Origin: a candidate division WWE3 bacterium GW2011_GWB1_41_6
GTDB lineage: Bacteria; Patescibacteriota; WWE3; UBA101185; UBA10185
Reading direction: 5' to 3'
NCBI GenBank assembly: GCA_000997355.1
Contig: LCBS01000009.1
Location: 1-32,260, forward strand
Length of the DNA: 32,260 nucleotides
Shown here: piece after piece, positions 6,162-26,901 of the stretch
Numbering within the stretch: position 1 is the stretch's first letter
Layout of the letters: every line of letters starts with the position of its first letter
The notes under the pieces: model-generated
Told to the model about the DNA's origin: nothing
The model's input: the letters and a program-made list of their open reading frames with translations, nothing else
Database searches by the model: none
Position numbers and translations under genes: made by a program

Positions 6162-6192
6162 CCCCATCGGTTAAAAAATCGGTGGGGATTTT
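6162..6192 (+). terminator. intrinsic terminator of the 5618-6123 unit
   Basis: CCCCATCG (6162-6169) pairs with CGGTGGGG (6180-6187, one G-T pair), followed by ATTTTAT. The hairpin reaches the stop region of the convergent glycosyltransferase gene. Confidence 0.75.
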
Positions 6193-7105
6193 ATCGAACA
6201 AAGCCCGAACCAACACTTGCAGCACGATGTCTGATCTCGTTCGTAATCGTAAAATAATCCATACCGTATAAAGAACCTTTACCTAAAGTACTGAGCGTCC
6301 AGTAGTATCTGTTCCACTTCCTGCAAAACTTCAACCCATTCAGAAATACTGATCTAAGTTTTTTATACTGGTGCTGATCTAAAGATATAGAGGCCCCGTT
6401 AGGACCTCCGTGTTCAACGAACGTTCCTCCATCCACAACTACTTTAAAACCCTCCTTCCGGACCTTCAGAAACAGGTCCAGGTCTTCGAACGTTCCATAA
6501 GCGTATCTTGTATCAAAATAGTCCACTTTTCTTAACAATAGCGTCGGGGAAACAATGCAAAATCCTATCAGACCATCGTAAATTTCGTAAGCTCTGCCAC
6601 TCATAATACCTTTCAACCACAAGCTAAACTGCTCGATCCGCTCAAGTTCCTGTGGTGAGTAATCTTTAAGCGGCGGGAAAAGGGAAGTTTTTTGAAACCC
6701 CCACGCAGTGTTAGTAACCGGTCCTACCATCCCATACGAACTATCTGACTTCAAAGTACCAACCAGCGATGAAACTGACCCTTGCGGCAGGCAGGTATCA
6801 TCATTAATTACCATCGTAACTTCTCCATCGGCCATTTTCATACCTTTTGTGTAACTTCCCGCAAATCCCAGGTTTTGTTCGTTACTTACGAACTTGAAAT
6901 CACCCGCTTTTGCAGTTATTTCAGATCTGTACTTTTCAATTAGTTCATTGGTTTCTTTTTGAAGCGGCGAACGGTCGTCTAGTACAATAAGCTGGGTCTG
7001 TGGTGTAATATTATTTAGAAGGCTTGGAAAGAACAGCTTATCTATAACTTCAAGAGTTTCAGGGCGGGAGTTATAAAGAGACACTACTATTGTTGTATTT
7101 ACCAT
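6191..7105 (-). CDS. family 2 glycosyltransferase (GT-A fold)
   Basis: A GT2 enzyme transfers a sugar from a nucleotide donor, here probably onto a surface glycan. The N-terminus TTIVVSLYNSRPETL is the classic first strand. D43-D44 (VLDDRSP), the NLGFAGSYTKGM segment and NDD at 101-103 (the DxD metal site) follow. E207-D208 (GTFEDLDL) matches the catalytic-base region, and a late VEHGG segment matches the acceptor loop. At 304 residues it is of usual size, with no membrane helix, so it is cytoplasmic or peripheral. On the minus strand TATAAT (7120-7125) lies 14 bases before the ATG with only a weak AAAGAGA ribosome site. Its promoter overlaps that of the divergent gene at 7218. No sugar-pathway genes flank it. 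Confidence 0.9.
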   Translation of the reverse strand: MVNTTIVVSLYNSRPETLEVIDKLFFPSLLNNITPQTQLIVLDDRSPLQKETNELIEKYRSEITAKAGDFKFVSNEQNLGFAGSYTKGMKMADGEVTMVINDDTCLPQGSVSSLVGTLKSDSSYGMVGPVTNTAWGFQKTSLFPPLKDYSPQELERIEQFSLWLKGIMSGRAYEIYDGLIGFCIVSPTLLLRKVDYFDTRYAYGTFEDLDLFLKVRKEGFKVVVDGGTFVEHGGPNGASISLDQHQYKKLRSVFLNGLKFCRKWNRYYWTLSTLGKGSLYGMDYFTITNEIRHRAASVGSGFVR

Positions 7106-7999: not shown

Positions 8000-8007
8000 C
8001 TTTGCCC

Positions 8008-10266
8008 ATGGATAAAACGTTCGAACATAAAACCGCTCAGGAAAAAGCACGCGAGATATGGGAAAAAGGTGGCTTTTTTAAAGCTCATGCAAACTCGGGC
8101 AAGGAGCCTTTTACAATACTACTTCCCCCTCCAAACGCAAGCGGAAAAATGCATACAGGAAACGTTCTGATGATCGCGTTAGAAGACCTTCTGATCAGGT
8201 GGAAAAGGATGCAGGGTTATGAGGCGTTGTGGGTTCCGGGAACCGACCACGCCGGATTTGAAACACAGACAACTTTTGAACGTGAGTTAAAAAAAGAAGG
8301 TAAGTCTAGGTTCGATTTTGACAGAAACACTTTATACTCTCAAATTGTAGATTTTGTTCAGCAGAATAAACACCAAATAGAAAATCAGATCAAGGAGATG
8401 GGCGCAAGTGTGGATTGGTCTAGGTATACATTTACTCTGGACGAACACGCAGTGAACGTAGTGCTTGATACATTCGAAAAAATGGTAAAAGATGGATTGA
8501 TCTACCGCTCCGACTATGTTGTAAACTATTCATTTAAGTGGGGAACCACTTTTAGTGACGCGGAGATTGTCTACAAAGAACAGAAGAGTCCTCTTTATTA
8601 TATTAGATATGGGCCGTTGACGGTTGCAACGGTAAGGCCAGAATCTAAACTAGGAGATACTGCGCTCGCTGTAAATCCTAATGACGATAGATATAAAGAG
8701 TATGTTGGTAAGGATATTGAATTTGAGGATGTTTTGGGGCCGAATAAACTTAAAGTTATCGCGGACCCATATGTTGATATAGAGTTTGGAACTGGTGTGT
8801 TAAAAGTGACTCCTGCGCACGATAAAAATGATTATGAGATAGGGCTGAGACATGGTCTGGAGATTAGGAACGTGGTAGGCATAAACGGAAGGATGACGGA
8901 AAATGCGGGAAAATATGCCGGGATGAAGGTTCTTGAAGCACGAAAAAAAGTGATTGAAGACTTGAACGGAATGGGTTTGATAGAGAAAGTGGATGAGGAT
9001 TATGAGAATTTAGTTCCGGTGGATTACAGAAGCGGAGATTATATCGAACAACTTGTAATGCCTAACTGGTTCGTAAAAGTGGAACCTTTGAGGAAACCTG
9101 CACTGGATGCAGTATTGGAGAAGAAAGTAAATATCTATCCTAAATGGAGAGAGATTACATATTTAAGGTGGATGGAAAATATGCGTGATTGGCCGATCTC
9201 ACGGCAGATTGTTTGGGGAATAAGAATTCCGGCTTGGTATAGCGTGGAGGAAAATCCTGATATAACAGTGACTTTTCTAAACGGAAAGGGTGCGATAACA
9301 AGCGGAAAAGTTGGGGAACTTCTGGGTTCGTATACGCTAAAAGAAATAGAGGATGGGCTGCAGTCACTGGTGGCACCAAAGAAAGCTGTTTATGTAATTG
9401 GCAAGGAAAAACCTGGAGATGGATTTTTGCCGGAGACAGACACGTTTGACACGTGGTTTTCCAGCGGGCAGTGGCCTTTGGTAACTTTAAAATATCCTGA
9501 CTCAGAGGATTTTAAGTATTTTTACCCGACTAGTGTTTTAGAAACCGGATGGGAGATTGTAACGCGGTGGGTTTCGAGGATGATAATGTTCGGAATATAT
9601 CTGACAGGACAACCGCCTTTTAAAGATGTTTATCTCCACGGACATATAAGGGCGATAGATGGTAGGAAGATGAGCAAGAGTCTTGGTAATGTTATTAACC
9701 CCGACGATTACATTGAGAAATATGGAGTCGACGCGTTAAGGATGGGATTGATCAACGGAACTGCTAACGGAAAAGATTTTAATTTCCCGCATGACAAAAT
9801 ACTAGGTTATAGGAATTTCGCAAACAAGATATGGAACATGGCGCGGTTCATGCTGATAATGACGGAAAGCTATGAGGAGGAAACGGGTGAAAAAGTGCCA
9901 TTTTTTGGAGATTTGGATCAGGAATTACTGCAGGCGGAGGATTTGGAAATAATGGAGAAACTGAACGGTTTGATCGGTGAGGTTGATAAGAATCTGGAAA
10001 AGTACCGTTTTGCCGATGCGGGCGATGCGATATATCACTTTATGTGGGATGAACTTGCCTCGGGCTATATCGAGAAGGTGAAGGGTAGGGAGGATAAAGT
10101 AGTAGCTTTGTGCGTTTTGCGTCATACGTACGTAACGTCTTTGAAATTGCTCCATCCTTTTATGCCTTTTGCGACCGAGCATATTTGGAGCCATCTTCCG
10201 GGATTGTCGAATGAGCCGCTGGCTATTAGCAAGTGGCCAGGAGACCAGGTTAAACCTAAAAAATAA
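8008..10266 (+). CDS. valS: valyl-tRNA synthetase, short form
   Basis: This class I synthetase charges tRNA-Val. The 752 residues show the Rossmann core with PPPNASGK and a HIGH-type motif reading HTGN (residues 49-52). The editing (CP1) domain has TVRPESKLGDTA and LKVTPAHDKNDYEIGLRHG. Next come the DWPISRQIVWGIRIPAWY block, KMSKS at 554-558 and an anticodon-binding domain to the end. It stops at the end of that domain, so the C-terminal coiled-coil arm of typical bacterial ValRS (about 860-950 residues) is missing. ATG 8008 is preferred to TTG 8002 because of the promoter spacing. A hairpin terminator follows. Confidence 0.95.
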   Translation: MDKTFEHKTAQEKAREIWEKGGFFKAHANSGKEPFTILLPPPNASGKMHTGNVLMIALEDLLIRWKRMQGYEALWVPGTDHAGFETQTTFERELKKEGKSRFDFDRNTLYSQIVDFVQQNKHQIENQIKEMGASVDWSRYTFTLDEHAVNVVLDTFEKMVKDGLIYRSDYVVNYSFKWGTTFSDAEIVYKEQKSPLYYIRYGPLTVATVRPESKLGDTALAVNPNDDRYKEYVGKDIEFEDVLGPNKLKVIADPYVDIEFGTGVLKVTPAHDKNDYEIGLRHGLEIRNVVGINGRMTENAGKYAGMKVLEARKKVIEDLNGMGLIEKVDEDYENLVPVDYRSGDYIEQLVMPNWFVKVEPLRKPALDAVLEKKVNIYPKWREITYLRWMENMRDWPISRQIVWGIRIPAWYSVEENPDITVTFLNGKGAITSGKVGELLGSYTLKEIEDGLQSLVAPKKAVYVIGKEKPGDGFLPETDTFDTWFSSGQWPLVTLKYPDSEDFKYFYPTSVLETGWEIVTRWVSRMIMFGIYLTGQPPFKDVYLHGHIRAIDGRKMSKSLGNVINPDDYIEKYGVDALRMGLINGTANGKDFNFPHDKILGYRNFANKIWNMARFMLIMTESYEEETGEKVPFFGDLDQELLQAEDLEIMEKLNGLIGEVDKNLEKYRFADAGDAIYHFMWDELASGYIEKVKGREDKVVALCVLRHTYVTSLKLLHPFMPFATEHIWSHLPGLSNEPLAISKWPGDQVKPKK

Positions 10267-10299
10267 CGGCCCTCAAAACCTTTCGGTGTTAAGAGCCGT
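10266..10299. terminator. bidirectional terminator between valS and the wall-hydrolase gene
   Basis: ACGGC (10266-10270) pairs with GCCGT (10295-10299). An inner stem, CTCAAAACC with GGTGTTAAG, has two mismatches. T-rich sequence follows on the plus strand and TATTTTTT on the minus strand, so it can serve both convergent units. Confidence 0.75.
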
Positions 10300-10369: not shown

Positions 10370-11233
10370 TTATTCGAAAGGCAGCCACTGACCGTCCAAA
10401 GTTAATCCCCCCGCTTCCTTGAGTGTGTAATACAATCCATGCGAATATTTCCCCTTATAGTAATACACCGCACGGTCCCAATTGCCGCCGCCTTTGTCTG
10501 GGTTGTTGTACATCCCTAGCAGGATAGAAATACCCTGCCGCATGGCATAGTCATAATCTACCAGATCAGCCACATCGATGCTGTCGTGAACAACGGCATG
10601 CCCGCCTGTTCCGTTTCTCGGTCTGTAGATCTGAGGGACTCCCCATGCAGGACCTATCGGGTTTACTTTCAATGTACACTTACCCTCGGGAACACCCTCG
10701 GCTTTTACCATGTGTACGTAGCCCGATTCGGATGCCATCAAAGCCCCCATTACCGGCTTCGGAATGCCATACTCCTGCGCAAGTTTCATCGAGATTTTGA
10801 ACGCTTCCACAGGACTTGGCCCGCAGTCTCCGATCACCAACAAACCTTTGTCGACTTTTCCGACTTGCTTGGTGGACGGCGAGGTGTCGATGATCACCTG
10901 CTTGTCCTCGATCTTGACGAACACGCCGGGAACTCGCACCGCCATGTAACCGGGATCTACGATCCCCAAAGCAATAGTAGGTTCAACAACCGGAGTCGGT
11001 TCCACGGTTAAAGTTGGTTCAACAGCTAGCGTCGGTGTTGGCACTGGCACCTCTACGATAACCCCGACCGGTTCAGTTGGATCAAGTACTTCTTCCTCAG
11101 AACCACTCCATTCGTCTAAAATGGCGTTGGCCGATTCTGCCAAAGCTTCCTTTGGTCCAGCGAGCTCGTTCAGAAACACTATCCCAAAACCAAGCACCAG
11201 GCCGATTAAGAGGTAGATGAACAGTTTTTTCAT
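10370..11233 (-). CDS. membrane-anchored lytic-transglycosylase-like protein
   Basis: The 287-residue protein has an N-terminal signal anchor (about residues 3-21), an acidic then Pro/Thr-rich spacer (PVPTPTLAVEPTL and similar, about 50-86) and a wall-hydrolase-like domain. Near residue 155 begins YGIPKPVMGALMASESGY, where E169 matches the catalytic Glu of SLT-type transglycosylases. GPAWGVPQIYRP matches the family G-x-x-Q block, and GISILLGMYNN then RAVYYYKGK matches its C-terminal part. Such enzymes cut glycan strands to let envelope machines through. It carries the motif ALGIVDPGYMAVR (88-100), shared with two upstream proteins. AGGAGG is embedded in the end of the previous gene, two bases away, implying translational coupling. 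A minus-strand T run past the stop terminates it. Confidence 0.75.
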   Translation of the reverse strand: MKKLFIYLLIGLVLGFGIVFLNELAGPKEALAESANAILDEWSGSEEEVLDPTEPVGVIVEVPVPTPTLAVEPTLTVEPTPVVEPTIALGIVDPGYMAVRVPGVFVKIEDKQVIIDTSPSTKQVGKVDKGLLVIGDCGPSPVEAFKISMKLAQEYGIPKPVMGALMASESGYVHMVKAEGVPEGKCTLKVNPIGPAWGVPQIYRPRNGTGGHAVVHDSIDVADLVDYDYAMRQGISILLGMYNNPDKGGGNWDRAVYYYKGKYSHGLYYTLKEAGGLTLDGQWLPFE

Positions 11234-11235
11234 AC

Positions 11236-12144
11236 TTACCTCCTGTACCTATCCGTGATGTTGAGTGCTTCATCGGCGGGATCGAGCCAGTAACATGACC
11301 CATCCGGCTTGCATTCGATGAGGAAGTAGTGTGCGTGTGACCCGTCGACATTATTCCCGGTCGCGCCGATCACTCCCCACTGTTCACCGGATTTGAACGT
11401 TTTGCCTAGCGAAACCAGATCGTAGGTCTTCGGATCCATATGCCCCGAACCGGCACGTAATTCCGCACCATCCGGATAGCGACAAGCTCCTACAACCGTG
11501 ATTCCGTCTGACCAAAGGTTGGAGTATACTTCTTGCTTAATTTGCTCGTTAGGGTACGGCCATTCCAAGATCGAAACAATCGCCATATCGCTTGGAAATC
11601 CCAAACGAAGATCCTGAGCGCCACTCTCCGTATAACACTTGGAATCTAACGCCCGGTGGCTGTTGATGTTAAACTTGTAACCTAGTCCAGTTTTAGAAAA
11701 CCTCGACCCGGGCACGCACGGAGGTTCAAGCGGAGTACAAACCGGAAGCTTTACATCCTTTGGAGCGGTACTTAAAGCTCCGCCGCTGTATAACATTCCC
11801 GTCGCACCTTTCGGCATAGCAGCACCGGCAACGATATTGTAGATATCATCGACAGACATCAGTTCAGCTCTCGCCTTTACAAGCATAGCCCCGGGATCTA
11901 CGATCCCGAGAAGCGCTTCAACTATTGGCGTCGGTTCCGCTTCTGAGTTTGATACCAACGGTAAGAGCACTAGCTCATTTTGCACCGTTCTGTTAGTAGC
12001 AACAGACTCGGTAGAGTTTGGGGTTTCCGACACCCCAGCCAGCGAGTTAAAAGCATCCGGATCTCCATCGGGGAGAAACCAAAAGCCTCCGACAAACACT
12101 GCGATAGCTGCAAAAAGAAGTAAGGGTTTAACCATTCTTCCCAT
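11236..12144 (-). CDS. membrane-anchored M23-peptidase-like protein, possibly degenerate
   Basis: This 302-residue protein has a signal anchor (about 6-24), a Ser/Thr-rich spacer, the shared motif LLGIVDPGAMLVK (78-90) and a C-terminal M23 (LytM-type) half. H235 (GSGHMD), the segment LGKTFKSGEQWGVIGATG and H270-A-H272 (GSHAHYF) then WLDP match the family. The first zinc motif HxxxD seems to read SGAQD (D178) with Ser in place of His, so catalysis is doubtful. Six Cys suggest disulphides. The ATG at 12144 follows GGAGACGAGAAAA; an earlier TTG at 12159 overlaps that ribosome site and is rejected. The next gene starts two bases after the stop. Confidence 0.7.
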   Translation of the reverse strand: MGRMVKPLLLFAAIAVFVGGFWFLPDGDPDAFNSLAGVSETPNSTESVATNRTVQNELVLLPLVSNSEAEPTPIVEALLGIVDPGAMLVKARAELMSVDDIYNIVAGAAMPKGATGMLYSGGALSTAPKDVKLPVCTPLEPPCVPGSRFSKTGLGYKFNINSHRALDSKCYTESGAQDLRLGFPSDMAIVSILEWPYPNEQIKQEVYSNLWSDGITVVGACRYPDGAELRAGSGHMDPKTYDLVSLGKTFKSGEQWGVIGATGNNVDGSHAHYFLIECKPDGSCYWLDPADEALNITDRYRR

Positions 12145-12277
12145 TTTTCTCGTCTCCAATCTATCTTATTAAGGTTTAAAAGTGCTGATCAATAGCAAGA
12201 TCAGTTATTAGTTTATTCGCAGAGTTTTACCTCTGTTCTGACATTCGAATTAAAAACTCAAATACCAAAACTGAAGT

Positions 12278-12321
12278 AAAAAGAGAGCTTTGCCTGCCCG
12301 TAATAAAAAGACAGGCAAAGC
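12278..12321 (-). terminator. terminator after the 462-aa protein gene
   Basis: On the minus strand GCTTTGCCTG (12312-12321) pairs with CAGGCAAAGC (12287-12296), followed by TCTCTTTTTAC. About 130 bases remain before the next start (12144). They hold a possible promoter (TTGATC with TAAGAT, 18 bases apart) and an ACTGATC/GATCAG inverted repeat. Confidence 0.85.
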
Positions 12322-12361
12322 TTCGAAAACAACCTTCACGATATACGCACGCAGGGACGGA

Positions 12362-13750
12362 TCAGTCGATCAGTTCGTACATCCACTGCATGATATAACC
12401 CATATCTCTGATATCCCCCTTGAATGTTCCCTTGGCATACCATTCCGGCGTGAAAGCTATGAACCACGGACGCCCGTCGTCACTTCCCGACCAGTCACCT
12501 GGAGATACAGGGAATGCATCCTCACCGTTTGCGTATTTCCTAAAGCTGTCTGTTCTTGGGTCAACCTCACATACTTTCCCGTAGTAGACCGGACAGACGC
12601 CAAAACGGCAGGACGTAGAAGGAACATCGGCCAAGACGCAGTAAAGCTGCGATACAGGCTCTCCCCCATTAAACACCTTTCTCATGGCCATCCAATTCCA
12701 AAGGACCGGATCAGGGCCCAACCCCATCAACCAGTTCGTCCTGTTGATGTCAGCTGGAACGGGTGGGGGAGCAAACTCCTGAACTTTCGCCAGATTAAGA
12801 TCGACCGGGGGATTTCCTGTATTGCCTGGAATGACCGGTTCTGGCTGCGGCTGCGGAACAGCGTTAGGGTCAGATAAAACATTCGGATCCGCATCAACCA
12901 ACGGGTCCGGCTGCGGATTAACGTCCGGGTTAGCAGCCAATTCCAATTCAGCTTGTTCCCTGGCCGCTGCCTCTCTCGCTGCCTGCTCCTGTGCCTCTTT
13001 CTCCCGCGCCAACTCGTTCCACTTGATGACGGAAGTAACTGATTTATCAAGCAAGTCCTGTGCCAGATCTTCCCGTCCGAGAGCCAGCAGTCCGTTGTAG
13101 ACACTGCCTACCGCATAAACGCTATCCTCTGTAACCGGAGGCCATACTTGAGGCAGGACCACCGAGTACATATCATTGATTAGCTGATCCCGAACTTCTG
13201 CACCTGCAGGATTCTCGTTCAGCCACGACGCAGCGTAGCTCAATTTTTCCCAGTCACCAAGTGCCATGGACATTTTAAACAAAACACCATAATCCTCGGC
13301 TTCGGTCGGAGATCCTTCAACCGGAGGGATTACTCCCGGTGGGATCCATGGCTTGATCGGTCCCTGGATCTCCATCTGAACAAACTCAGGAGAAACCTCC
13401 ACCCGCATCGTTCCTGCCCGGACAAGTCCCAAATTCACAGGGCCTGCAGGTTGCTGTTGAGGCATGGCCTGCAGATCAGGTAGGATCTCTTCCGGTTGGA
13501 TAACCAACGGAGGCTCTTCCACCAGCGGCTGAATGGCAGGTTCTTGCGGGAGCAACTGAGTCGCTGACCAGGCGTTACTATCGCTGATAACGTAGTAACC
13601 GGCCACCGCAACCACCGTGGACATAAACAACATTCCAAGATAGTATAGAGAGCGCGGTACTGTCCGCTTCCTCTTACCATACTTCCTTTTTTCACCGATA
13701 CGTGTCTCAACCTTTACAGGCCGAGGCTCCGGTTTCCTAGAGTAGTTCAT
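12362..13750 (-). CDS. 462-aa membrane-anchored ectodomain protein, unknown function
   Basis: A basic cytoplasmic N-terminus (KRKYGKRKR) leads into one membrane segment (about 35-53), then a Pro/Gln/Glu-rich spacer and the motif NLGLVRAGTMRVEV (106-119) shared with the two hydrolase-like neighbours. An all-helical TPR-like region (about 150-240) follows, ending in an Ala/Glu-rich coiled coil (AREKEAQEQAAREAAAREQ). A Pro/Asp/Asn-rich linker with PDPLVDADPNV-type repeats comes next, and finally a Cys-containing C-terminal domain (CVLADVPSTSCRFGVC). I recognise no family. ATG 13750 follows AAAGGAG; an earlier TTG is ignored. Upstream, a strong hairpin ends only about 25 bases away, so expression depends on read-through from the 799-aa gene. 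Confidence 0.8.
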   Translation of the reverse strand: MNYSRKPEPRPVKVETRIGEKRKYGKRKRTVPRSLYYLGMLFMSTVVAVAGYYVISDSNAWSATQLLPQEPAIQPLVEEPPLVIQPEEILPDLQAMPQQQPAGPVNLGLVRAGTMRVEVSPEFVQMEIQGPIKPWIPPGVIPPVEGSPTEAEDYGVLFKMSMALGDWEKLSYAASWLNENPAGAEVRDQLINDMYSVVLPQVWPPVTEDSVYAVGSVYNGLLALGREDLAQDLLDKSVTSVIKWNELAREKEAQEQAAREAAAREQAELELAANPDVNPQPDPLVDADPNVLSDPNAVPQPQPEPVIPGNTGNPPVDLNLAKVQEFAPPPVPADINRTNWLMGLGPDPVLWNWMAMRKVFNGGEPVSQLYCVLADVPSTSCRFGVCPVYYGKVCEVDPRTDSFRKYANGEDAFPVSPGDWSGSDDGRPWFIAFTPEWYAKGTFKGDIRDMGYIMQWMYELID

Positions 13751-13773
13751 AAACAACTCCTTTACTTGCTACT

Positions 13774-13819
13774 TAAAAAAACCGCCTCGGGATGCAAAAA
13801 CTTGCGCACACCGAGGCGG
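13774..13819 (-). terminator. terminator-like hairpin immediately before the 462-aa gene
   Basis: On the minus strand CCGCCTCGG (13811-13819) pairs with CCGAGGCGG (13782-13790) and seven T follow. It lies 30 bases after the 799-aa gene stop and ends about 25 bases before the next ATG, with no promoter visible between. Confidence 0.85.
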
Positions 13820-13849
13820 GTCTGTTGTTGTGATCTTGCCTAGAGCTTG

Positions 13850-16249
13850 TTAGTCGCCGGCCTCTACGAAAGCATAGGTGGCGCCGCCACTTTCGACCAT
13901 GATGTCCAGATCGGGGCTTGGAACACCCGGGATCATACGACACTCGGACGGAGTACTCTGGGAAACATATAATCCGTTCCCTTTGCTCAGCCACACAGCT
14001 CCACCGTAGCTATGCAATGCCGCTCTAACATTCTGGTAGGCTTCGAAGTCGCTCCAGCGAAGTTCCGAGCAGTTGGCTGTCGGATCATCCTGCCCTACCG
14101 GCGTCCCCAACCCTTTGACGGGTGAGAGATAACCACCAAGGTAAGTCTCAAACTTCGAACCAACCAGGATCATCTGCGGCGGATACGAGGGTGTATACTG
14201 GATGGCAAATCCACCACGTTCGCATTGGGCTTTGGTAGCCAGGTTTCCCCAGATACCGGACCAGTCGACCTTCACCATCTCACGGAAATTTCCTTGGTAG
14301 TCATACGTTTTAGTGAGAATGGTGGAACCACCCACAGGCTGACCTGAACCATCACACGGACCTTCAGCGATAGCCATGGTATAGCCTTTACCGCTTAAAT
14401 AACCAGGCAGGCTCGATGCCGTATGTGACTCAGGCTCCAACTGTGTGTTGGTACCACCGGTCGGCGCACCGCTACCACCCGCGTTGTCTGCCTGAGCAGG
14501 CGGTTCGGTCATTTCCCCATACCCAACGAGGGCGAACGAGTTGTCTTCCGAACGATAAGCGTGCCAACCGAGCGTCGAGATGTCAGGCTTCTGGAGTTTA
14601 ACGTCCAGACAACCTTCCTGCAAATCACCCAAACTATGGTCGCTGAGGTCAACATGAATGTCGACGTCGGGAGCGTTAATCGGACGAAAAATCATGTCCG
14701 ATGTGTTCGCCGAACCTTCACACCACTTCTTCTTGATCGTGAGGATCCCGTAGACATTTACAGCATCCTGCGGCTCCATCCACGTCAAGTCTTCAGCAGG
14801 TGCTTCCGGTTCCGGAGTGGGTTCCTGTTCATCGGCAACAGCATTCTCCTCAGCCTCGGCTATCAACTTGTCCAGTTGCGACTCATAGTTAGCCGCGGGA
14901 GCAGGAACTGCAGTTGCTTTTACTTCGATGGTCTTGGGAGCAAGCTCCTTCAATGTCGCGACGATCCGCACTTCGGGAATAACAGGAATCATGGAATCCT
15001 GCCCGTAGTACGTAACGTTGGTCACATTGAGCTTGGCAGCGGCTTCGTTCAAAGCGTCTTCCCGTTTCTGCGCCTCATCCCAGTTAGGAGGTGTGTTATC
15101 GTCAGGCCAGACTAAAGCGCGAACTAACTCGCACTCAGCAAGACCAACCTTATACAAACCGGCCGAGATCTGAGTCATGGGTTGAGTAACGAGAGGGTCG
15201 GTAATGTACTTCAAAAGCCGTTCATCGAACGACCCCAAAACCAGTTCCTTCTCACCACCCTCACCAATAACCCAAACACCCTCGGTATACCAGTCAGACA
15301 AGTAACCGCACCCTTTTTCTAGACCCAGCATATCCTCGCCACCACCGGTCAGAAAATCGTCAACTTTATAGACGTTCTTCCCACTGATCTGGAGTAAAGC
15401 AAGGTCTTCGTTCAGTCGAGCGACGTTCTGCGACCAATCTTGACCGATCGCGACGAGCTCGCTTAAACCAAGGTTTTCCGGGTCAAGCGTTACCGGCGTG
15501 TTTTGACGCGGCTCAGCCTGATACTCGTTAACCTCCGAAACAGGGAACGGGGTTGTTGTTGCAGCACTTTCAGCTTCAGATAAAAGACGCTCGAGAGCAT
15601 CATCATCTGACACCGGAGCATTCTCTGCACCTTGTCTACCGGAACCTCCGCCAAACAAAGTCAGACGGGTAAGCGGATTGTTACTGACAAGCCCGGGTGA
15701 TTCCATCACATACCATCCAGCAAGGCCTAAAGTCCCGCCTGCTGCAAGGATGAGCAGAACAAGCAAGGCCACTGGGATACGCTTGGCGCGAATCCATCCA
15801 CGGCCAAACCACAACATTAAACCACCAACCAAAAGCACCGATGCAATGATGGTAACAAACACCCCCATATTCATCGCAGTATTAAGCCCGAGCAGAACAG
15901 CAACAGCGATCGTAGCCTTGACACCGATAATGAACCACTTCTCCATCTCACTCTTACGTGACATAGGTTCACTGATGTCCACACCGGACTGTGCTGCCCA
16001 GGATTCCAAAGGCATCGGCTTTCGGGATTTATCGGTGTGGTGAGCCTCGCGCGAAGCTTTGCCGGACACATAACGATAGCCTGCAATAAACAGCAACGCT
16101 AATGCTATAGCCCCGGACCACTTCCACACACCTAAGCCATACATGTAAAACATGACGGCCGTTGCAGTAGCCCACACTAAGATATAAGGTGCGATCCGCA
16201 AGAATTTTCCGCGAACCACGGGACGACCAGATACAGTTGTACTAGCCAT
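13850..16249 (-). CDS. 799-aa five-TM protein with large multi-domain ectodomain
   Basis: The N-terminus holds five predicted membrane segments (about 19-38, 44-58, 105-123, 128-148 and 158-179). The remaining 600 residues should lie outside. A short helix repeat occurs twice, ALERLLSEAESAA (218-230) and QLDKLIAEAEENA (458-470), each followed by a Thr- or Pro/Glu-rich linker. This suggests two related modules separated by flexible stalks. Two further Cys-containing segments follow (about 495-580 and 600-799). I recognise no family; the architecture suits a structural component spanning membrane and wall. AAGGAG precedes ATG 16249. It is the largest gene of the locus, with G+C well above the flanks. 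Confidence 0.85.
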   Translation of the reverse strand: MASTTVSGRPVVRGKFLRIAPYILVWATATAVMFYMYGLGVWKWSGAIALALLFIAGYRYVSGKASREAHHTDKSRKPMPLESWAAQSGVDISEPMSRKSEMEKWFIIGVKATIAVAVLLGLNTAMNMGVFVTIIASVLLVGGLMLWFGRGWIRAKRIPVALLVLLILAAGGTLGLAGWYVMESPGLVSNNPLTRLTLFGGGSGRQGAENAPVSDDDALERLLSEAESAATTTPFPVSEVNEYQAEPRQNTPVTLDPENLGLSELVAIGQDWSQNVARLNEDLALLQISGKNVYKVDDFLTGGGEDMLGLEKGCGYLSDWYTEGVWVIGEGGEKELVLGSFDERLLKYITDPLVTQPMTQISAGLYKVGLAECELVRALVWPDDNTPPNWDEAQKREDALNEAAAKLNVTNVTYYGQDSMIPVIPEVRIVATLKELAPKTIEVKATAVPAPAANYESQLDKLIAEAEENAVADEQEPTPEPEAPAEDLTWMEPQDAVNVYGILTIKKKWCEGSANTSDMIFRPINAPDVDIHVDLSDHSLGDLQEGCLDVKLQKPDISTLGWHAYRSEDNSFALVGYGEMTEPPAQADNAGGSGAPTGGTNTQLEPESHTASSLPGYLSGKGYTMAIAEGPCDGSGQPVGGSTILTKTYDYQGNFREMVKVDWSGIWGNLATKAQCERGGFAIQYTPSYPPQMILVGSKFETYLGGYLSPVKGLGTPVGQDDPTANCSELRWSDFEAYQNVRAALHSYGGAVWLSKGNGLYVSQSTPSECRMIPGVPSPDLDIMVESGGATYAFVEAGD

Positions 16250-16356
16250 TGTTCACTCCTTCTGTATTGGATTTTTAGCGATAAGTTACAATCGCATGAT
16301 TAAAAAATTTGCTTCCCCTCTTTTAAAATCACAAGTTTAAACACAGCTTGCGATCT

Positions 16357-16396
16357 TAAAAAAGAGCCGGGTAAAGTTGAGTAAACTCAACCCGGC
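16357..16396 (-). terminator. terminator after the three-TM protein gene
   Basis: On the minus strand GCCGGG/CCCGGC with inner GTTGAGT/ACTCAAC forms a long stem, followed by TCTTTTTTAAG. About 110 bases remain before the next gene, where no clear promoter was found. Confidence 0.85.
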
Positions 16397-16430
16397 GTTG
16401 TTTATCACATCACACTAACTTAACCGAAAA

Positions 16431-16871
16431 CTAGGGTCCAAACGGGAACTGTATCCAGAACAATCCGAGAAAGGCAAACCAACTGTACCAAAAAGCAACG
16501 ACAGTGGTTACATTTGCCCTCTGGAAGTTCTCAATCAGGTTGCGTGGCAGTCTACGGTAAGAACCAGCCATGAACACCAACACGATCGCCATAAAGAACA
16601 ACCAGCGTCCCCAAGGCATTGGCGCTCCTGGTATAACCGGATACGCAAAGTCGAGGAACGGCATGAACGGTCGGTTCGACTGCTGCTCAAACGCCAGAAA
16701 GAACCGCCAGAATGTGAAGAAAGCCGGCAAAAACAACCCAAACATTTTCAACACTCCGGGGTTGTACAGCAGGACACGATCTATCCCCAAGTCGAAACCG
16801 GTAAATGGTGACGGTGGTTGACCTCCACGTTGACGTGCTTCCCTTCTCGCGCGTGCATTACTTTGTGTCAT
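16431..16871 (-). CDS. small three-TM membrane protein of the envelope locus
   Basis: This 146-residue protein has a basic, Arg-rich N-terminus (RARREARQRGG), then hydrophobic segments at about 38-60, 88-104 and 121-142. The loops contain aromatic and Pro residues (FMPFLDFAYPVIPGAPMP). No family is recognised. GAGGTGAG lies just before the ATG and overlaps the stop of the SPFH-like gene, eight bases upstream, so the two are translationally linked. A strong terminator follows, ending the first block of the locus (18689 to 16431). Confidence 0.8.
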   Translation of the reverse strand: MTQSNARARREARQRGGQPPSPFTGFDLGIDRVLLYNPGVLKMFGLFLPAFFTFWRFFLAFEQQSNRPFMPFLDFAYPVIPGAPMPWGRWLFFMAIVLVFMAGSYRRLPRNLIENFQRANVTTVVAFWYSWFAFLGLFWIQFPFGP

Positions 16872-16879
16872 AGCTCACC

Positions 16880-17488
16880 TCACTCACTTAGATCCGCAAT
16901 CTGAACGGTTGGTGTAATTTGAACACCGGAACCTTGCCGGAGAACCATCAACGCCTGTGCTAAAGAAATCCTTGCTATGGCATCAGCAGCCCTGTTCGGG
17001 GATACATCTGCAGCCACCAAAGCCCGGATTTGTTCGGCAATCGCGTGACCTTCACCTCTTCGCTCTAACACCCCACTGGGATCCTTAATTGAGGTGATCC
17101 TGATTTCTTCAGCCCAAAACCCGGTAATCGCAAGCAGCTTGCTACCCGCCCTGGTAATTAAAGCTGTTAGAAACGCTTCGTCGTCCAGCAAAGTATGAAC
17201 GTTATCCATCAGCGTTCTGGAAACCCACCGGGCAACAACTGCACGGATCGTTTCATCTACAACATCGTTGAGTCTCTGGTTATTGAGAACCCATCTTCCG
17301 TCCTCTTTAATCATATAGTTGTTGCGCTTAAACCTCGCTCCCATTATAGGTATCTTGGACAGAGTTACACCTACTCCAACATGGGCTGCGATCTGGTTTC
17401 TTGTCATTGCTTCAACTATTACGGTAAGGTTGGCAACCTCCTGCTCCCATCCCAGAAATCTGACGGCGAGTAACGCAAAAGGCGCCAT
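16880..17488 (-). CDS. SPFH/band 7-like (stomatin/prohibitin) membrane protein, N-terminus unresolved
   Basis: The visible 202 residues look like an SPFH domain: VIVEAMTRNQIAAHVGVGVT, then DVVDETIRAVVARWVSRTL, an LTALITRAGSKLLAITGFW block, and a helical C-terminus. SPFH proteins form oligomeric membrane scaffolds. The ATG at 17488 cannot be the natural start. The same frame stays open to 17635 and encodes convincing protein, including a membrane segment (AAYGWFLLLIAMAPFALLAV) that spans the supposed start. That 49-codon extension has no ATG, GTG or TTG, and 17488 has no ribosome site. Joining it to the lipoprotein frame upstream needs one frame change. An assembly error, a pseudogene or programmed frameshifting are all possible. 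Confidence 0.65.
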   Translation of the reverse strand: MAPFALLAVRFLGWEQEVANLTVIVEAMTRNQIAAHVGVGVTLSKIPIMGARFKRNNYMIKEDGRWVLNNQRLNDVVDETIRAVVARWVSRTLMDNVHTLLDDEAFLTALITRAGSKLLAITGFWAEEIRITSIKDPSGVLERRGEGHAIAEQIRALVAADVSPNRAADAIARISLAQALMVLRQGSGVQITPTVQIADLSE

Positions 17489-17580
17489 TGCAATAAGCAG
17501 TAAGAACCACCCGTATGCCGCGACCGGTATGATCGTGTGGATACTGAAAGGCTCCCTTACTTCGGATCCTACACCACCAA

Positions 17581-17835
17581 CTATTGGCTCACCCTCAGCC
17601 GTAAGCGGAATAAGGAAATAACCAGGCCATAATCTTCACGGTCGGATTCTATCGGAACTATCCCGCCCGCGACTGCATCGGTTTCAAGAACAACGTCCCC
17701 TTGGTAAAGATTCCCGCTCTCATCTTCGATAAACAACGGAGAACCGACTTCGGGAACCGGTAATGTACCTCCGCAGGCTGCCAGAAGCAACGCTCCCAGC
17801 ATCAGCAGCCCAAAGACAAACAATCGTTTCTTCAT
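17581..17835 (-). CDS. small lipoprotein, possibly the 5' part of the SPFH-like gene
   Basis: The 84-residue frame begins MKKRLFVFGLLMLGALLLAAC, a signal peptide with a lipobox (LAAC) and lipidation Cys21, then GGTLPVPEVG and an acidic region. The last residues (LFRLRLRVSQ) look out of frame. In the -1 frame the sequence continues as sensible protein into the SPFH-like gene. GAGGAGG, embedded in the end of the previous gene two bases away, serves as ribosome site for ATG 17835. The lipidated N-terminus is well supported; the C-terminus is not. If the two frames are one gene, the product is a lipoprotein with a later membrane helix and SPFH domain, which would be unusual. Confidence 0.65.
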   Translation of the reverse strand: MKKRLFVFGLLMLGALLLAACGGTLPVPEVGSPLFIEDESGNLYQGDVVLETDAVAGGIVPIESDREDYGLVISLFRLRLRVSQ

Positions 17836-17837
17836 TC

Positions 17838-18689
17838 TTACACCTCCTCAACCCCGCCGTTAGAAGATGACCAGCGCCACAAACCAAGGAGTAAAACCCC
17901 CAGTGTAGCGAGCACGGACGCGACTAGCCGGTTATCCTCACTCCAACCAGACGACAAACTCAACCCAAATTCCGCAGCCGGCCTAAACCATAGCTCATCC
18001 ACCCAACTTGCCGACAATAAGCCCGGACTCCAGATGGTCAGAAATGCTACTACAAGATGGGTGACGAAGAGGACCAAGATCGCATTGATCAGGAAATTCT
18101 TCAGCATTTGCCAACCAAAAAACAGCAGGACGATCACCAGGATCAGCGGAAGTATGGGACGAAGTGCATCAAAAGTTCCTTGCGCCCCCCGGTCCAGCGA
18201 CCATACAAAACTCCCAGCCAGCAACGCTACAAGGACAATCGAAGCCACACCCTGCCACGTGGAAAGAGATCTGGTAATGCTTTGTACCATCGCCATTAAA
18301 CCCCCCGCACGCCATGCCGTAAACAAACCAGCAAGTGCAATGAGCATGATCACCGCTACCCAGACCGTGTAATCTCCGAAGATTCCTACAACGCTATCCG
18401 CTAAGGATGGCACATAGGCTTCCGCGGCGTCTAATCCACGATCCAACTGCTGTAACGTTGATTCTCCGGATGGAGCGAGTGCCGGATTTGCACGCAGTGC
18501 GAACACCCAACCGGCGAATGCCGTTGCTGCCGGCCTACCGATCACAGGAATCGCACTCAAGGTGACTGCGATCTCCGGGCCCTTACTTGCAACTGCCTTA
18601 AGCACGAAAGGCCCGACCAGTGCAAGGATAACGTACAAACCGAAAAGGAACAGTAAAACCTTAGCCAACAACTTAAGAAACGTCCACAT
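17838..18689 (-). CDS. polytopic membrane protein, first gene of the envelope locus
   Basis: This 283-residue protein has about six or seven hydrophobic segments (near residues 5-28, 108-128, 148-164, 175-200, 205-222 and 252-270). A stretch of about 65 residues after the first is rich in Ala/Pro. The ATG at 18689 is chosen because AGGAGG lies six bases upstream. An upstream ATG at 18740 adds 17 residues that overlap this ribosome site and is rejected. Transcription probably starts about 150 bases upstream, at TTTACA-17-TATATT (18845-18873). The final codons (GAG GAG GTG TAA) double as the ribosome site of the lipoprotein gene. No family is recognised; VirB6-like or transporter roles cannot be decided. 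Confidence 0.8.
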   Translation of the reverse strand: MWTFLKLLAKVLLFLFGLYVILALVGPFVLKAVASKGPEIAVTLSAIPVIGRPAATAFAGWVFALRANPALAPSGESTLQQLDRGLDAAEAYVPSLADSVVGIFGDYTVWVAVIMLIALAGLFTAWRAGGLMAMVQSITRSLSTWQGVASIVLVALLAGSFVWSLDRGAQGTFDALRPILPLILVIVLLFFGWQMLKNFLINAILVLFVTHLVVAFLTIWSPGLLSASWVDELWFRPAAEFGLSLSSGWSEDNRLVASVLATLGVLLLGLWRWSSSNGGVEEV

Positions 18690-18873
18690 TTTTAACCTCC
18701 TAGGTTTGATTTGTGAGATGTATTTTGATGTAAGGTACAACTAGAATACCGGCTAGGCCGGTTAATTCACTCTAATCTTTTGTAAATCTTGAATTGCTAT
18801 TTAATTGTACGTGTATCTATCTTTCCTTTCCTTACTTGCCCGAAAATATACACTATGGGATTTTAAATGTAAA
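18690..18873 (-). promoter_or_regulatory. promoter and structured leader of the envelope locus
   Basis: On the minus strand TTTACA (18868-18873), a 17-base spacer and TATATT (18845-18850) form the promoter. The leader to 18689 holds a long imperfect hairpin whose core is ACCGGC-CTA-GCCGGT, extended by GAATTA/TATTC. Outside it, GTACAA pairs with TTGTAC. The core is also a near-palindromic DNA site, so either RNA structure or a repressor operator is possible. The rest of the gap up to 18967 is AT-rich and without a gene. Confidence 0.6.
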
Positions 18874-18967: not shown

Positions 18968-19663
18968 TTACTCTTCTTTACCTTTGTCTTTACCCTTATC
19001 TCCACCCTCAGCGCCAGCCTCGTCTTCTTCAGTCTTTTCCGCTTCCTCAGTAGCCTCAATGCCTTCTATAGCTTCCTCTTCGCTAACTTCCTCTTCAACC
19101 TCAGCCATCACAGCATAGTCAAGCTTTACAACCTGTTCGTCATCATCGTAGTCCAAAACTTCCACTTTTTCCCTGTCGTACTGCAGGTCACCAACCGTAA
19201 CCGCCTCCCCAACCTCAGTTATTTTAGATACATCAATAACGAATGCGGAAGGGAAGTCCGTAGGCAAAGCCTCAACGGCGATCTCGTTTAGCAATACAAG
19301 AACCAAAGCCTGACCGGACTTGACCAGTTCATTCTCTTCCTCACCGATAACCTCTACCGGGATTTCGGCCGTGATTTTTTCTTTTAAATTGACTTTGTGA
19401 AAACCTACATGAATAGGGGACATGCTAACAGGATCCAGTTGAACGTCTTTGACCAGCACTTTCTCATTCTTACCGTCGATAACAAGATCCACCAAAGAAG
19501 TTTCTCCTGCTTCATTAAATATTTTTACAAATGAGTTGTGGTCTAGGGTAATGGAAACAGAATCTATCCCTTTTGCGAACATAACAGCCGGCAGCTGCCT
19601 TTGTTTCCTTAAGGAGTTAGTTTTTTTACCGAATTTTTCCCTTTTTTGCGCAATAAGTTCCAT
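18968..19663 (-). CDS. rplY: 50S ribosomal protein bL25 (TL5/Ctc form)
   Basis: bL25 binds 5S rRNA on the large subunit. The 231 residues match the Ctc/TL5 form: an N-terminal 5S-binding domain (AQKREKFGKKTNSLRKQRQLPAVMF split as MELIAQKREKFGKK and RKQRQLPAVMFAKG), a linker with SPIHVGFHKVNL, and a beta C-domain containing VEALPTDFPSAFVIDVS. A 45-residue acidic, low-complexity tail ends GDKGKDKGKEE. The start at 19663 is fixed by the conserved N-terminus, although it overlaps the upstream gene by 55 bases and has no good ribosome site. Translation is probably coupled to the zinc-ribbon gene. No terminator is visible after the stop. Confidence 0.95.
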   Translation of the reverse strand: MELIAQKREKFGKKTNSLRKQRQLPAVMFAKGIDSVSITLDHNSFVKIFNEAGETSLVDLVIDGKNEKVLVKDVQLDPVSMSPIHVGFHKVNLKEKITAEIPVEVIGEEENELVKSGQALVLVLLNEIAVEALPTDFPSAFVIDVSKITEVGEAVTVGDLQYDREKVEVLDYDDDEQVVKLDYAVMAEVEEEVSEEEAIEGIEATEEAEKTEEDEAGAEGGDKGKDKGKEE

Positions 19664-24258: not shown

Positions 24259-26091
24259 TTATTTAATAATGAAATCATATAGTGCGTTTCTAATGGAAAT
24301 GTAACCCGGTGCGCGGAGGTTGAATACTCTTTTGAACTCAGTACCGTCGATCTCAACCCTTCCCTGATTGGTGTTAAACACCACGTTAGATGTGTAACCT
24401 CCGTTACTAATGTCTACTTTCTCATACCTGACACTGGTAAATTTAGTGCCGTATTTTTCCGCTTTACTTGCCATATCGTCCAGTGAATACGGGTTACCGC
24501 CCCAACAGCTCGTTGTCACAGGAGAAATTCTATCTACCTCGGAATTTGAACCTCTTTCATATACGACCCACGCGTTAAGTATGTCCGCCATTTCTTTTTC
24601 ATTGAGCCACGGGCTTGAACGCCCGCACGTTGACGAACTCTCATTGTAAGTTTGTTTATACCAGGCTTTAAAGAACCACGGAGATTTTGCTTTTTTCTCA
24701 TAAGCGTCTCCCGGCCACTTACCCGAGGTATCCCACCCGACTCCGTCCAAAATAAACCCACCTGTTGTCGAGGAATACATGGCATGGGTATCCCCATCTA
24801 TTATCTTTCCTTTTGTGTCGTCAACCGCTTTCTTCCACCGACTGGGAGGGCTGTCGGATTTGCTTTTAAGGAAAACCTGACAGCTTTGGGACGTACATAT
24901 CGACTTTCCGGCCTTGTAGTATCTGTATGCGTATGTACGGGCAGCAATAGCCTGAGCTTTAAGAGCTTCCTCATGCCAACTGTCAGGCATCTCAGCAATA
25001 CCGTAAAGATACTTTTGAAAATCCATATTCCCATATCCGTCCACTTTTATTTCGTCCGGAAATCCGTCCTTTTTCACTACGCTTTGTTTGTAGTAAAACT
25101 TGATTATAGCGTCGTGTTTTTGCCCGCCCTCTGCGCGTGCTTTTGCCCCGTACTGACTCATCCCTCTACGATGCGTGTAAGCACCGTAACTACCTAACGC
25201 AAAAGCAGGACTGAAACCGGGGTCGGGTAGTTTCTGGCTTTCCGCTTCGTAATCACCAACGGTCCCAAAACCTTCGCCTGCTTTTTGTGCCAAGATACTT
25301 TGTTGTTTTGAAGAAAGTTCGCTTATATCTTTGGAAAGTTCTGAGAGTTTGCCCTCCAGATTAGACTCTTCATCTTTAAGATCTCCCAATACATTTTCCT
25401 CTCCTGCTTTCTGATTGGCCAATTGCGTTCTTAATGCTAGCAGGTCGGATTTAGCTTTTTCCAGATCGCTCTTTAATTCCTCCGCTTCTTTTTTATCTCT
25501 TTCAAAATTTGAGATCTCGGTATTTATGGAACCGATCAAACTGATGGTTTCGGATGTAAGAGATTTCTCGAAAATGTAGGAAAACGCGGAGAATTGAAAA
25601 CCGTTTAGATTATGAGAGGGAAGTACTGATAAGAAAATTTCAAGATCGTTCAAAACCCCTCGCTTGGAATAGTTGCGAACTACTTTGTTCCTAAGGGCGA
25701 TCTTTTCCCCAAGCTTCTGTTGCCTGTCCTCAATGTTCTTATCTAAAACATCAAGCTCCTCCTCCATTTGGGCGATGTCTGATTCCAACTCCCGTACCTC
25801 CGACTGAGTAACGTTAAGCTGTCCTGATAGCTGAGCGATCTTCTGAGCAACCCCATTTGCCTTATCTTTTATGGATGAAAGTTTCTTACTTGCTGACTGA
25901 TATTGTTGTTCCTTTTTTTCGATCTGTTCCGCATAACATTCTGCCCTGTCGTCCAGATCGGCAATGTCGTCACAGCTATCCGCGCGTACAAGCCCGGCCC
26001 CAAGAACTATTAGTACTGCAAGAATAACTGCAGCCAGGACCGGAATCACTTGACTATTCTTTTTATAATGCCGATAATTTAGGGTAGGCAT
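24259..26091 (-). CDS. secreted coiled-coil SpoIID/LytB-domain protein
   Basis: SpoIID-type proteins bind or cut denuded peptidoglycan strands. The 610-residue protein has a signal anchor (about 14-36), long coiled coils (about 52-135 and 185-270) and a SpoIID domain. The domain shows THRRGMSQYGAKARAEGG (306-323), YLYGIAEMPDSWHEEALKAQ (361-380), AIAARTYAYR and a late YSSTTGGF. The coiled coil resembles FtsX-activated hydrolase regulators. The C-terminus includes a pair of Cys-containing loops. Its ATG shares bases with the ATG of the divergent pilin gene. An extended -10 (TGA-TATAAT, 26098-26106) lies exactly six bases upstream, inside that neighbour, so the mRNA should be leaderless. Confidence 0.92.
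   Translation of the reverse strand: MPTLNYRHYKKNSQVIPVLAAVILAVLIVLGAGLVRADSCDDIADLDDRAECYAEQIEKKEQQYQSASKKLSSIKDKANGVAQKIAQLSGQLNVTQSEVRELESDIAQMEEELDVLDKNIEDRQQKLGEKIALRNKVVRNYSKRGVLNDLEIFLSVLPSHNLNGFQFSAFSYIFEKSLTSETISLIGSINTEISNFERDKKEAEELKSDLEKAKSDLLALRTQLANQKAGEENVLGDLKDEESNLEGKLSELSKDISELSSKQQSILAQKAGEGFGTVGDYEAESQKLPDPGFSPAFALGSYGAYTHRRGMSQYGAKARAEGGQKHDAIIKFYYKQSVVKKDGFPDEIKVDGYGNMDFQKYLYGIAEMPDSWHEEALKAQAIAARTYAYRYYKAGKSICTSQSCQVFLKSKSDSPPSRWKKAVDDTKGKIIDGDTHAMYSSTTGGFILDGVGWDTSGKWPGDAYEKKAKSPWFFKAWYKQTYNESSSTCGRSSPWLNEKEMADILNAWVVYERGSNSEVDRISPVTTSCWGGNPYSLDDMASKAEKYGTKFTSVRYEKVDISNGGYTSNVVFNTNQGRVEIDGTEFKRVFNLRAPGYISIRNALYDFIIK
26050..26078 (+). promoter_or_regulatory. promoter of the pilin cluster, inside the SpoIID gene
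   Basis: TTGACT (26050-26055), a 17-base spacer and GATAAT (26073-26078). The ATG at 26090 is 11 bases later, leaving a predicted leader of about five bases. It lies within the first 14 codons of the opposite gene. Confidence 0.75.
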
Positions 26092-26467
26092 GACAAAATT
26101 ATATCAGAAGTTAGGCACTAATTTCCGCTTCATACTATCTTTCGTTTTTGTGGCTATTTTTATGTCCGGGAATGCTCGGGCTGCCTTCACGATATGCGAC
26201 CCCACAAAAGATTACGGCACCTGCACTGACTTTAGCAAACTTCTCATCCTTATTTTTAATTTCCTAATTCCAACAGGAATCGCAGCAGGTCTGTTCTTTA
26301 TAATCAAAGCGGGGTATACTCTCATGACCAGCGAAGGAAACCCGCAAAAGACTACGGAGGGAAAAGAGGACTTGACTGCAGCTGTCGTTGGAACTTTGTT
26401 CATAGCATTGTCTTTAGTTACTCTTCGCATTATAATTTCTGTAGTATTAGGTGAAAAGCCGTTCTAA
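26090..26467 (+). CDS. T4SS-pilin-like (TrbC/VirB2-type) membrane protein 1
   Basis: The 125 residues hold a signal-like segment (about 11-32), then two membrane helices (about 50-75 and 95-118) joined by a loop TSEGNPQKTTEGKEDL. This two-helix layout with a short polar loop is the TrbC/VirB2-type pilin plan found in CPR genomes. The Cys pair (CDPTKDYGTC) after the signal suggests a disulphide. It is the first of four tandem paralogues on the plus strand, with a promoter at 26050-26078 and almost no leader. The next gene follows by 23 bases. It probably forms part of a surface filament or channel. Confidence 0.8.
   Translation: MTKLYQKLGTNFRFILSFVFVAIFMSGNARAAFTICDPTKDYGTCTDFSKLLILIFNFLIPTGIAAGLFFIIKAGYTLMTSEGNPQKTTEGKEDLTAAVVGTLFIALSLVTLRIIISVVLGEKPF
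26098..26106 (-). promoter_or_regulatory. extended -10 promoter of the SpoIID gene, inside the pilin gene
   Basis: On the minus strand TGA-TATAAT followed by six bases and ATG 26091. It lies within the first six codons of the opposite gene. Confidence 0.7.
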
Positions 26468-26490
26468 TTTTTGAAGGAGGTGTAAAAAGT

Positions 26491-26841
26491 ATGAATTTAA
26501 CTTTAGTTAAACCGGTGTATGCAGCCGTGCCTTCCGTGTTAACTGACCCGCTTGGTACAAAATACCGATCTTTGTCAGCGATTTTCGGTTTGTTAATTAA
26601 CGTTGTTATCGGTGTGGGGTGGGCATTGGTTTTTATTTTCTTAGCTTTAGGTTTTATTAAGTACATTACCTCCAGAGGAGAAACCAAATCAACGGACCAG
26701 GCCAGACAGTGGCTTACTTATGCGGCATTGGGAGGCGTGGGTTTATTCTTCTTAACAGCAATAAGGTTCATCATCATCAATATACTTGGATCATCGAGCA
26801 CGTTAGGACCGAGCGAAATTACAGGATTCTTGGGCAGCTAA
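26491..26841 (+). CDS. T4SS-pilin-like membrane protein 2
   Basis: A 116-residue paralogue of its upstream neighbour: a short N-terminus, helix 1 (about 29-56), loop TSRGETKSTDQARQWL and helix 2 (about 74-98), then a Ser/Gly-rich tail. The loop motif TSRG-(E/D)-x-K is shared with the third copy. A strong GAAGGAGGTG lies nine bases before the ATG, unlike copies 1 and 3. A perfect terminator follows at once, so copies 1 and 2 form one transcript and may be made in larger amounts than copies 3 and 4. Confidence 0.85.
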   Translation: MNLTLVKPVYAAVPSVLTDPLGTKYRSLSAIFGLLINVVIGVGWALVFIFLALGFIKYITSRGETKSTDQARQWLTYAALGGVGLFFLTAIRFIIINILGSSSTLGPSEITGFLGS

Positions 26842-26856
26842 TATCAAGATAATTAC

Positions 26857-26887
26857 AAAAAGCCCCGGCTTTACCCGGGGCTTTTTT
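26857..26887 (+). terminator. strong terminator within the pilin cluster
   Basis: AAAAAGCCCCGG (26857-26868) pairs with CCGGGGCTTTTT (26875-26886), followed by another T. The next ATG is only 15 bases on, so copies 3 and 4 need read-through or a cryptic start. Confidence 0.92.
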
Positions 26888-26901
26888 GAAAAATCAGAAA
26901 A

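Follow-up and report, generated by a model that had tools for sequence, protein, structure and literature searches.

Operons of the SPFH/NfeD (flotillin) type place a membrane protein beside an SPFH-type protein. Patescibacteria carry a type IV secretion system (T4SS; PMC12102498), and the hypervariable surface modules of Thermococcales, VARTIG, are anchored by a common Ig-domain protein (PMC8416519). Here we compare these systems with a locus in the candidate division WWE3 bacterium GW2011_GWB1_41_6, whose 938-kb genome is assembled in 54 contigs. The window, that is, the entire stretch of DNA analyzed, is one complete contig of 32,260 bases, and the locus is an 8.4-kb block on its minus strand (positions 10370-18740), located between rplY and valS. 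The original prediction, made from the sequence of this window, had proposed an undescribed apparatus crossing the cell wall. With moderate confidence, we read the block as one allele of a variable envelope cassette at an rplY-valS hotspot, probably building a surface structure. We found no description of the rplY-valS locus in the literature on WWE3/Katanobacteria peptidoglycan, Patescibacteria flotillin/SPFH proteins, or hypervariable regions in the candidate phyla radiation (CPR).

A variable accessory cassette in a chromosomal hotspot

The borders of the site are two genes named by reading their sequences:
8002-10266, plus strand: valS (valyl-tRNA synthetase), left border; open reading frame (ORF) with 36-70% identity in relatives by tblastn
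18968-19663, minus strand: rplY (bL25/Ctc), right border; present in 26 of 27 family genomes with 43-63% identity

We surveyed this site in 27 genomes of the window's WWE3 family, the window's own genome included. In 13 of these, only 113-372 nucleotides, with no cargo, separate the two genes; 12 genomes carry cargo between or beside them, and two were left unjudged. Among the other WWE3 families, valS and rplY are close neighbours in most of the genomes where both were found, and no comparable cargo was detected at the site in the families examined. Ten occupied sites encode mostly envelope proteins, whose sequences resemble those of the window's set little or not at all. Hydrophobic segments are present in 35 of the 41 cassette proteins, compared with 63 of the 129 ORFs from other loci fetched for the family (Fisher p 2.4e-5), and the cargo usually has a higher G+C content than the DNA around it, with the smallest difference in genome G014. 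The site is thus a hotspot, with conserved borders and with positions that are empty or variably filled among relatives. Because other sets occupy the same site and gene order is not kept, the block is a variable accessory envelope cassette rather than a conserved operon. As a separate observation at this site, genome G017 has, beside rplY, a reverse-transcriptase-like gene (L040:3419-5479) close to one resembling a type IV pilin gene; it may be part of a retroelement or a diversity-generating element.

The block differs in composition from the rest of its contig (G+C 0.511 versus 0.431), and when a window of the block's size is moved along the contig, the maximum of G+C coincides with the block. 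The shift affects all codon positions; the G+C content of third positions (GC3) is 0.54 within and 0.44 outside. The G+C-rich minus-strand locus of the original prediction is thus borne out, and the hand counts behind it (36 and 32 of 60 bases within, 22 and 17 of 60 outside) are exact. From the G+C content and the patchy occurrence, we infer horizontal transfer of the cassette.

Transcription units and proteins of the block

Four stable hairpins with U tracts on the minus strand (folding z from -4.7 to -6.1) cut the block into four units. With four terminators inside or at the end of the block, it comprises four transcription units and not a single operon. A simple terminator scan overlooked these hairpins, whose stems are interrupted or whose loops are beyond its model; they were found by folding:
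16367-16397, minus strand: terminator of unit 1; -18.7 kcal/mol, z -5.2
13782-13820, minus strand: terminator of unit 2, after the gene of the 799-residue protein; -25.4 kcal/mol, z -4.7
12282-12325, minus strand: terminator of unit 3, after the gene of the 462-residue protein; -23.1 kcal/mol, z -6.1
10267-10298, minus strand: terminator of unit 4, between the lytic-transglycosylase-like gene and the convergent valS; -20.6 kcal/mol, z -5.9, U tract

The genes, from the first unit to the last, are as follows:
17838-18689, minus strand: unit 1, polytopic protein, 283 residues, six transmembrane segments (ORF and hydropathy)
17581-17835, minus strand: unit 1, 5' part of a probable split gene, with signal peptide, lipobox LAAC and ectodomain; 84 codons to the stop (ORF)
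16880-17632, minus strand: unit 1, SPFH-like part of the same probable gene, with transmembrane segment and C-terminal domain; open frame of 251 codons
16431-16871, minus strand: unit 1, small transmembrane protein, 146 residues, counterpart of G010 L037:2933-3427
13850-16249, minus strand: unit 2, 799-residue protein with about four N-terminal transmembrane segments and a 600-residue exterior region (ORF and hydropathy)
12362-13750, minus strand: unit 3, 462-residue anchored protein with one transmembrane segment, Pro-rich linkers and a shared module (ORF and hydropathy)
11236-12159, minus strand: unit 4, anchored M23-like metallopeptidase, 307 residues (hidden Markov model (HMM), BLAST and residues by reading)
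10370-11233, minus strand: unit 4, anchored lytic-transglycosylase-like (LT-like) protein, 287 residues, with transmembrane segment, Pro/Thr linker, shared module and SLT-like domain (motifs by reading)

All eight co-oriented frames of the original prediction are present, but they probably represent seven genes because the 84-residue lipoprotein frame and the SPFH-like frame are probably one frameshifted gene. The coding end of the block lies at 18689/18740, not at 18873. Every block protein contains at least one hydrophobic segment, so that the anchors originally described hold throughout, whereas two of the segment counts do not: by threshold, the 799-residue protein has four segments rather than five, and the supposed three-segment protein (the small transmembrane protein) has one.

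None of the block proteins gave a credible match in Pfam, PHROGs or NCBIfam; PADLOC yielded nothing credible for the five that were submitted, and comparison of three with solved structures by sequence produced no significant result. The claim that the locus matches no known system thus held for the proteins tested. Single-sequence and two-row searches with the SPFH-like, 799-residue, M23-like, LT-like and small transmembrane proteins as queries, covering 45-380 CPR genomes, viral contigs, plasmids and GTDB genomes, recovered no credible relative except in G010.

The two putative wall hydrolases of unit 4 retain the residues expected of their families. In the translation of the M23-like protein, HRALD, GHMD and HAH occur in order, in agreement with the zinc/catalytic pattern HxxxD and HxH. 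An HMM built on M23 domains from the sister cassettes matches the protein at E 0.0024 among 41 proteins, and BLAST pairs it with the M23 protein of G022 (E 0.002); against zoocin A, the E value is 0.51. The LT-like protein shows, also in order, the catalytic Glu in SESG, GVPQI (GxxQ) and YYKGKY (YxxG-like). Both assignments made in the original prediction therefore stand at the level of residues and motifs, but neither protein has a Pfam match, and the class-specific lytic transglycosylase HMM gives E 1.1. A class-wide SLT search found a lytic transglycosylase elsewhere in the window's genome (G000, contig C42), beside leuS, which we rejected as a cassette member because it is a housekeeping copy.

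In the M23-like, LT-like and 462-residue proteins, the module LG[IL]V[DR][PA]GxM, located by pattern search, follows an anchor at the N terminus and a linker rich in Pro or in Pro and Thr:
10943-10966, minus strand: GIVDPGYM, in the LT-like protein
11884-11907, minus strand: GIVDPGAM, in the M23-like protein
13406-13429, minus strand: GLVRAGTM, in the 462-residue protein
As a DNA pattern, the module has three matches in the window's genome, all in the block; the 41 other WWE3 genomes lack it, and a control with the pattern reversed finds nothing. Across the module part, the M23-like and LT-like proteins align with E 3e-4 (small set). We infer from these sequences that the module may be a common docking or sorting element, tying both hydrolases and the 462-residue protein to one place.

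The start of the 462-residue protein was read as the ATG at 13750. Relatives of the 799-residue protein were not found in 96 genomes or in viral contigs, and an alignment-free AlphaFold model of its exterior region is unusable, with a mean predicted local distance difference test (pLDDT) score of 34; another alignment-free model, with a score of 40, is likewise unusable.

In unit 1, the polytopic gene most likely starts at the ATG at 18689, behind AGGAGG. The hydropathy profile of its product correlates with that of G010 L037:990-1829 (r 0.61), and the sequence alignment of the two is not significant. The SPFH-like frame was first listed as 16880-17488. Upstream of the ATG at 17488, which sits within the transmembrane segment, the frame is still open and hydrophobic, and it continues to a stop near 17635 with no ATG, GTG or TTG in between; the lipoprotein frame overlaps it in a different reading frame. 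At the same place in G010, an intact gene (L037:1830-2936) encodes a 368-residue protein with an anchor, an exterior part, a transmembrane segment and an SPFH-type domain. Given the lack of an upstream start, the position of the ATG inside the transmembrane segment and the intact counterpart, the two frames probably are one gene cut by a frameshift, either real or introduced in sequencing.

The SPFH label of the original prediction describes a pattern only. Pfam detects no Band_7 match, and a class-specific Band_7 HMM built from 23 SPFH proteins of the WWE3 class aligns in the expected register at an E of 0.38, which is not significant. The G010 SPFH-type protein is similar to a genuine Band_7 protein in the G014 cassette (Z 4.2-4.6). 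Other G+C-rich SPFH genes were considered as copies of the cassette and rejected because a class-wide Band_7 search places them at other sites without a cassette. Three SPFH/flotillin-like genes, L087:9035-10234, L088:10290-11483 and L096:9096-11233, have a G+C content of about 0.51 compared with about 0.37-0.42 around them, and they adjoin secA and other housekeeping genes.

The small transmembrane protein resembles its G010 counterpart with Z 5.7 (0 of 1000 shuffles), or Z 3.4 with locally preserved shuffles, and it is the only protein for which sequence support for a unit 1 counterpart is good. Overall, a counterpart in G010 is probable for unit 1, and none is known for the rest of the block. 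Gene order, proposed as a check in the original prediction, is not kept for the block as a whole; the order polytopic, SPFH-type, small transmembrane recurs in one genome only, G010. There, unit 1 stands alone at the site, so that the genes do, in part, occur separately in relatives, a finding that partly counts against the original prediction.

Sister cassettes and readings of the locus

The cargo at the other occupied sites is diverse:
G010 (single-contig genome): polytopic, SPFH-type and small transmembrane genes; only unit 1 represented
G014: lytic transglycosylase, 106-residue protein, transmembrane protein, genuine Band_7 protein (E 4e-7), protein with four transmembrane segments
G002: M23 protein, anchored protein, transmembrane protein
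G012: M23-like, LT-like (weak SLT match), polytopic and anchored proteins
G008: M23-lytic transglycosylase fusion, anchored and polytopic proteins
G022 and G019 (one genus): M23 protein, polytopic proteins, two ATPases
G004: single Ig-like anchored lipoprotein
G015: single small transmembrane protein (anchored)

Pfam confirms M23 or SLT domains in the cassettes of G002, G008, G014 and G022. Wall hydrolases accompanied by anchored and polytopic proteins, the combination singled out in the original prediction, thus reappear in relatives at this position of the chromosome, and BLAST similarity between cassettes is limited to the hydrolase domains and the G019/G022 pair. The absence of an ATPase, also pointed out originally, is true of the block but not of the cassettes of that genus. 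One of their two ATPases is a Rho-family protein (E 6e-23 to solved Rho structures, E 3e-7 to type III secretion ATPases); a scan of GTDB contigs located it in G022 and G019 only, and viral contigs yielded none. The other is a 647-residue P-loop protein with only a weak Mad8 match in PADLOC. These ATPase-bearing cassettes lie at L036:1264-7319 and L035:1-5222.

The role of the cassette probably lies at the cell surface, and the wall-crossing apparatus of the original prediction is possible. The polytopic, SPFH-type and small transmembrane proteins would form a membrane platform. The 462-residue protein would serve as a stalk which, along with the two hydrolases, would be held on the exterior side of the membrane via the same short module, so that wall cutting would be confined to one place. 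The 799-residue protein would display a large, lineage-specific exterior domain. Together, these proteins probably would build a surface structure through the locally opened wall, meeting a partner cell or surface, and the set would be exchanged, or would diverge so fast that little similarity persists between genera. Such a surface complex, with wall opening under local control, is the reading that accounts for every part of the anatomy.

Several points weigh against this interpretation. The formation of a complex, the anchored surface localization and the enzyme activities are predictions from sequence. The LT-like protein is identified by its motifs, sequence comparison gives no significant homology for the SPFH-like and polytopic proteins, and the platform gene may be broken by the frameshift in the window's genome. 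The cargo beside rplY in G016 (a VirD4-like protein) and G017 (a reverse transcriptase, a pilin and others) is not clearly cassette-like. Against transfer, the site shows neither an integrase or transposase nor a flanking repeat: frame reading and Pfam revealed no integrase-like ORF in the block, and the borders share no direct repeat of at least 9 nucleotides and no inverted repeat of at least 10 nucleotides.

A cassette for cell-wall growth, division or surface coating, which would remodel or decorate the wall with no function in transport or contact, is a tentative alternative that we consider unlikely. It accounts for the nearly uniform envelope-directed cargo and for the single-protein cassettes of G004 and G015, but half of the family has no cargo at the site, so that the cassette is dispensable for growth, and the lytic transglycosylase beside leuS is available for housekeeping. 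We give a similarly low weight to a more specific proposal, in which the rplY-valS cassettes would be versions of a single undescribed contact apparatus that spans the envelope. Its parts would be a platform bearing an SPFH-type ring, hydrolases docked through the module and an exterior protein that varies; a Rho-family hexameric ATPase would be the motor in one genus, and the others would have no local motor.

Somewhat less likely still is a divergent or accessory part of a T4SS, with the hydrolases being VirB1-like, the polytopic proteins VirB6-like and the anchored proteins VirB8-like, and the ATPases encoded elsewhere. In its favor are the pilin-like proteins encoded in the window itself (26090-27760), the VirB4-type P-loop_TraG protein of contig C6 in the window's genome, and the two ATPases in the sister cassettes of one genus; hydrolases of the wall and polytopic proteins also belong to the usual parts of a T4SS. 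However, each of the 42 WWE3 genomes searched encodes P-loop_TraG, even where the site is empty; therefore, the T4SS does not depend on this locus, and the block is not its core. Moreover, no block protein, the two hydrolases included, matches a T4SS family, and the locus encodes no VirB4-type ATPase. No sequence match to VirB6, VirB8 or VirB10 was obtained, although such folds may be present. We know of no T4SS that has SPFH proteins among its parts.

The flanks of the contig contain several other genes:
26090-27760, plus strand: four small proteins with two to three transmembrane segments, resembling VirB2/TrbC-type pilins; near valS, G010 has counterparts of three of the four genes and of the adjacent gene with a SpoIID domain
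28386-31757, minus strand: 1123-residue protein beside the pilin-like genes, with a transmembrane segment near residue 880 and a C-terminal HETGH (HExxH metallopeptidase-like); sub-threshold DUF5700 peptidase match only, E 0.037
6191-7105, minus strand: left-flank glycosyltransferase-like gene, upstream of valS

A decaying remnant of a conjugative element or prophage, to which the raised G+C and GC3, the patchy occurrence and the split gene might point, is improbable: no integrase, relaxase, capsid or terminase and no flanking repeats were recognized, relatives of the block are absent from the viral contigs and plasmids searched, the four terminators are intact, and the genes are otherwise open. 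An assembly chimera, in which a foreign stretch with raised G+C and no near relatives was fused into a WWE3 contig, can be dismissed almost entirely because several independent assemblies, including the single-contig G010, have analogous cargo between these very borders.

Comparison with described systems

Little is settled about how CPR bacteria make contact with their hosts and exploit them, and profiles miss most of their surface proteins. A fixed chromosomal site that either lacks cargo or holds a different envelope cassette each time points to strong diversifying pressure, and factors of host range or contact would be expected there. Collecting such cassettes is simple, requiring only that the sequence between rplY and valS be read.

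Like the patescibacterial T4SS (PMC12102498), the block combines wall hydrolases with polytopic and anchored membrane proteins in an ultrasmall bacterium of the epibiont type; unlike it, the block lacks VirB4/VirD4, pilin and relaxase, and the T4SS ATPase, universal in the class, is encoded elsewhere. The resemblance to SPFH/NfeD operons lies in a membrane protein adjoining an SPFH-type protein, but no NfeD was found, the SPFH match is not significant, and wall hydrolases and large exterior proteins follow. VARTIG (PMC8416519) similarly is a lineage-restricted, fast-changing module with unique gene combinations, whereas the WWE3 cassettes share only their chromosomal site and general make-up. 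Finally, although the sister cassettes of WWE3 SURF_46 (QZJF01000017.1) and RIFOXYD1_FULL_39_9 (MEWG01000039.1) encode, in addition, a Rho-family ATPase paralogue and a second P-loop ATPase, and protein similarity to them is limited to the M23 domain, they share with the block the same site, a raised G+C content, an M23 hydrolase and a polytopic protein.

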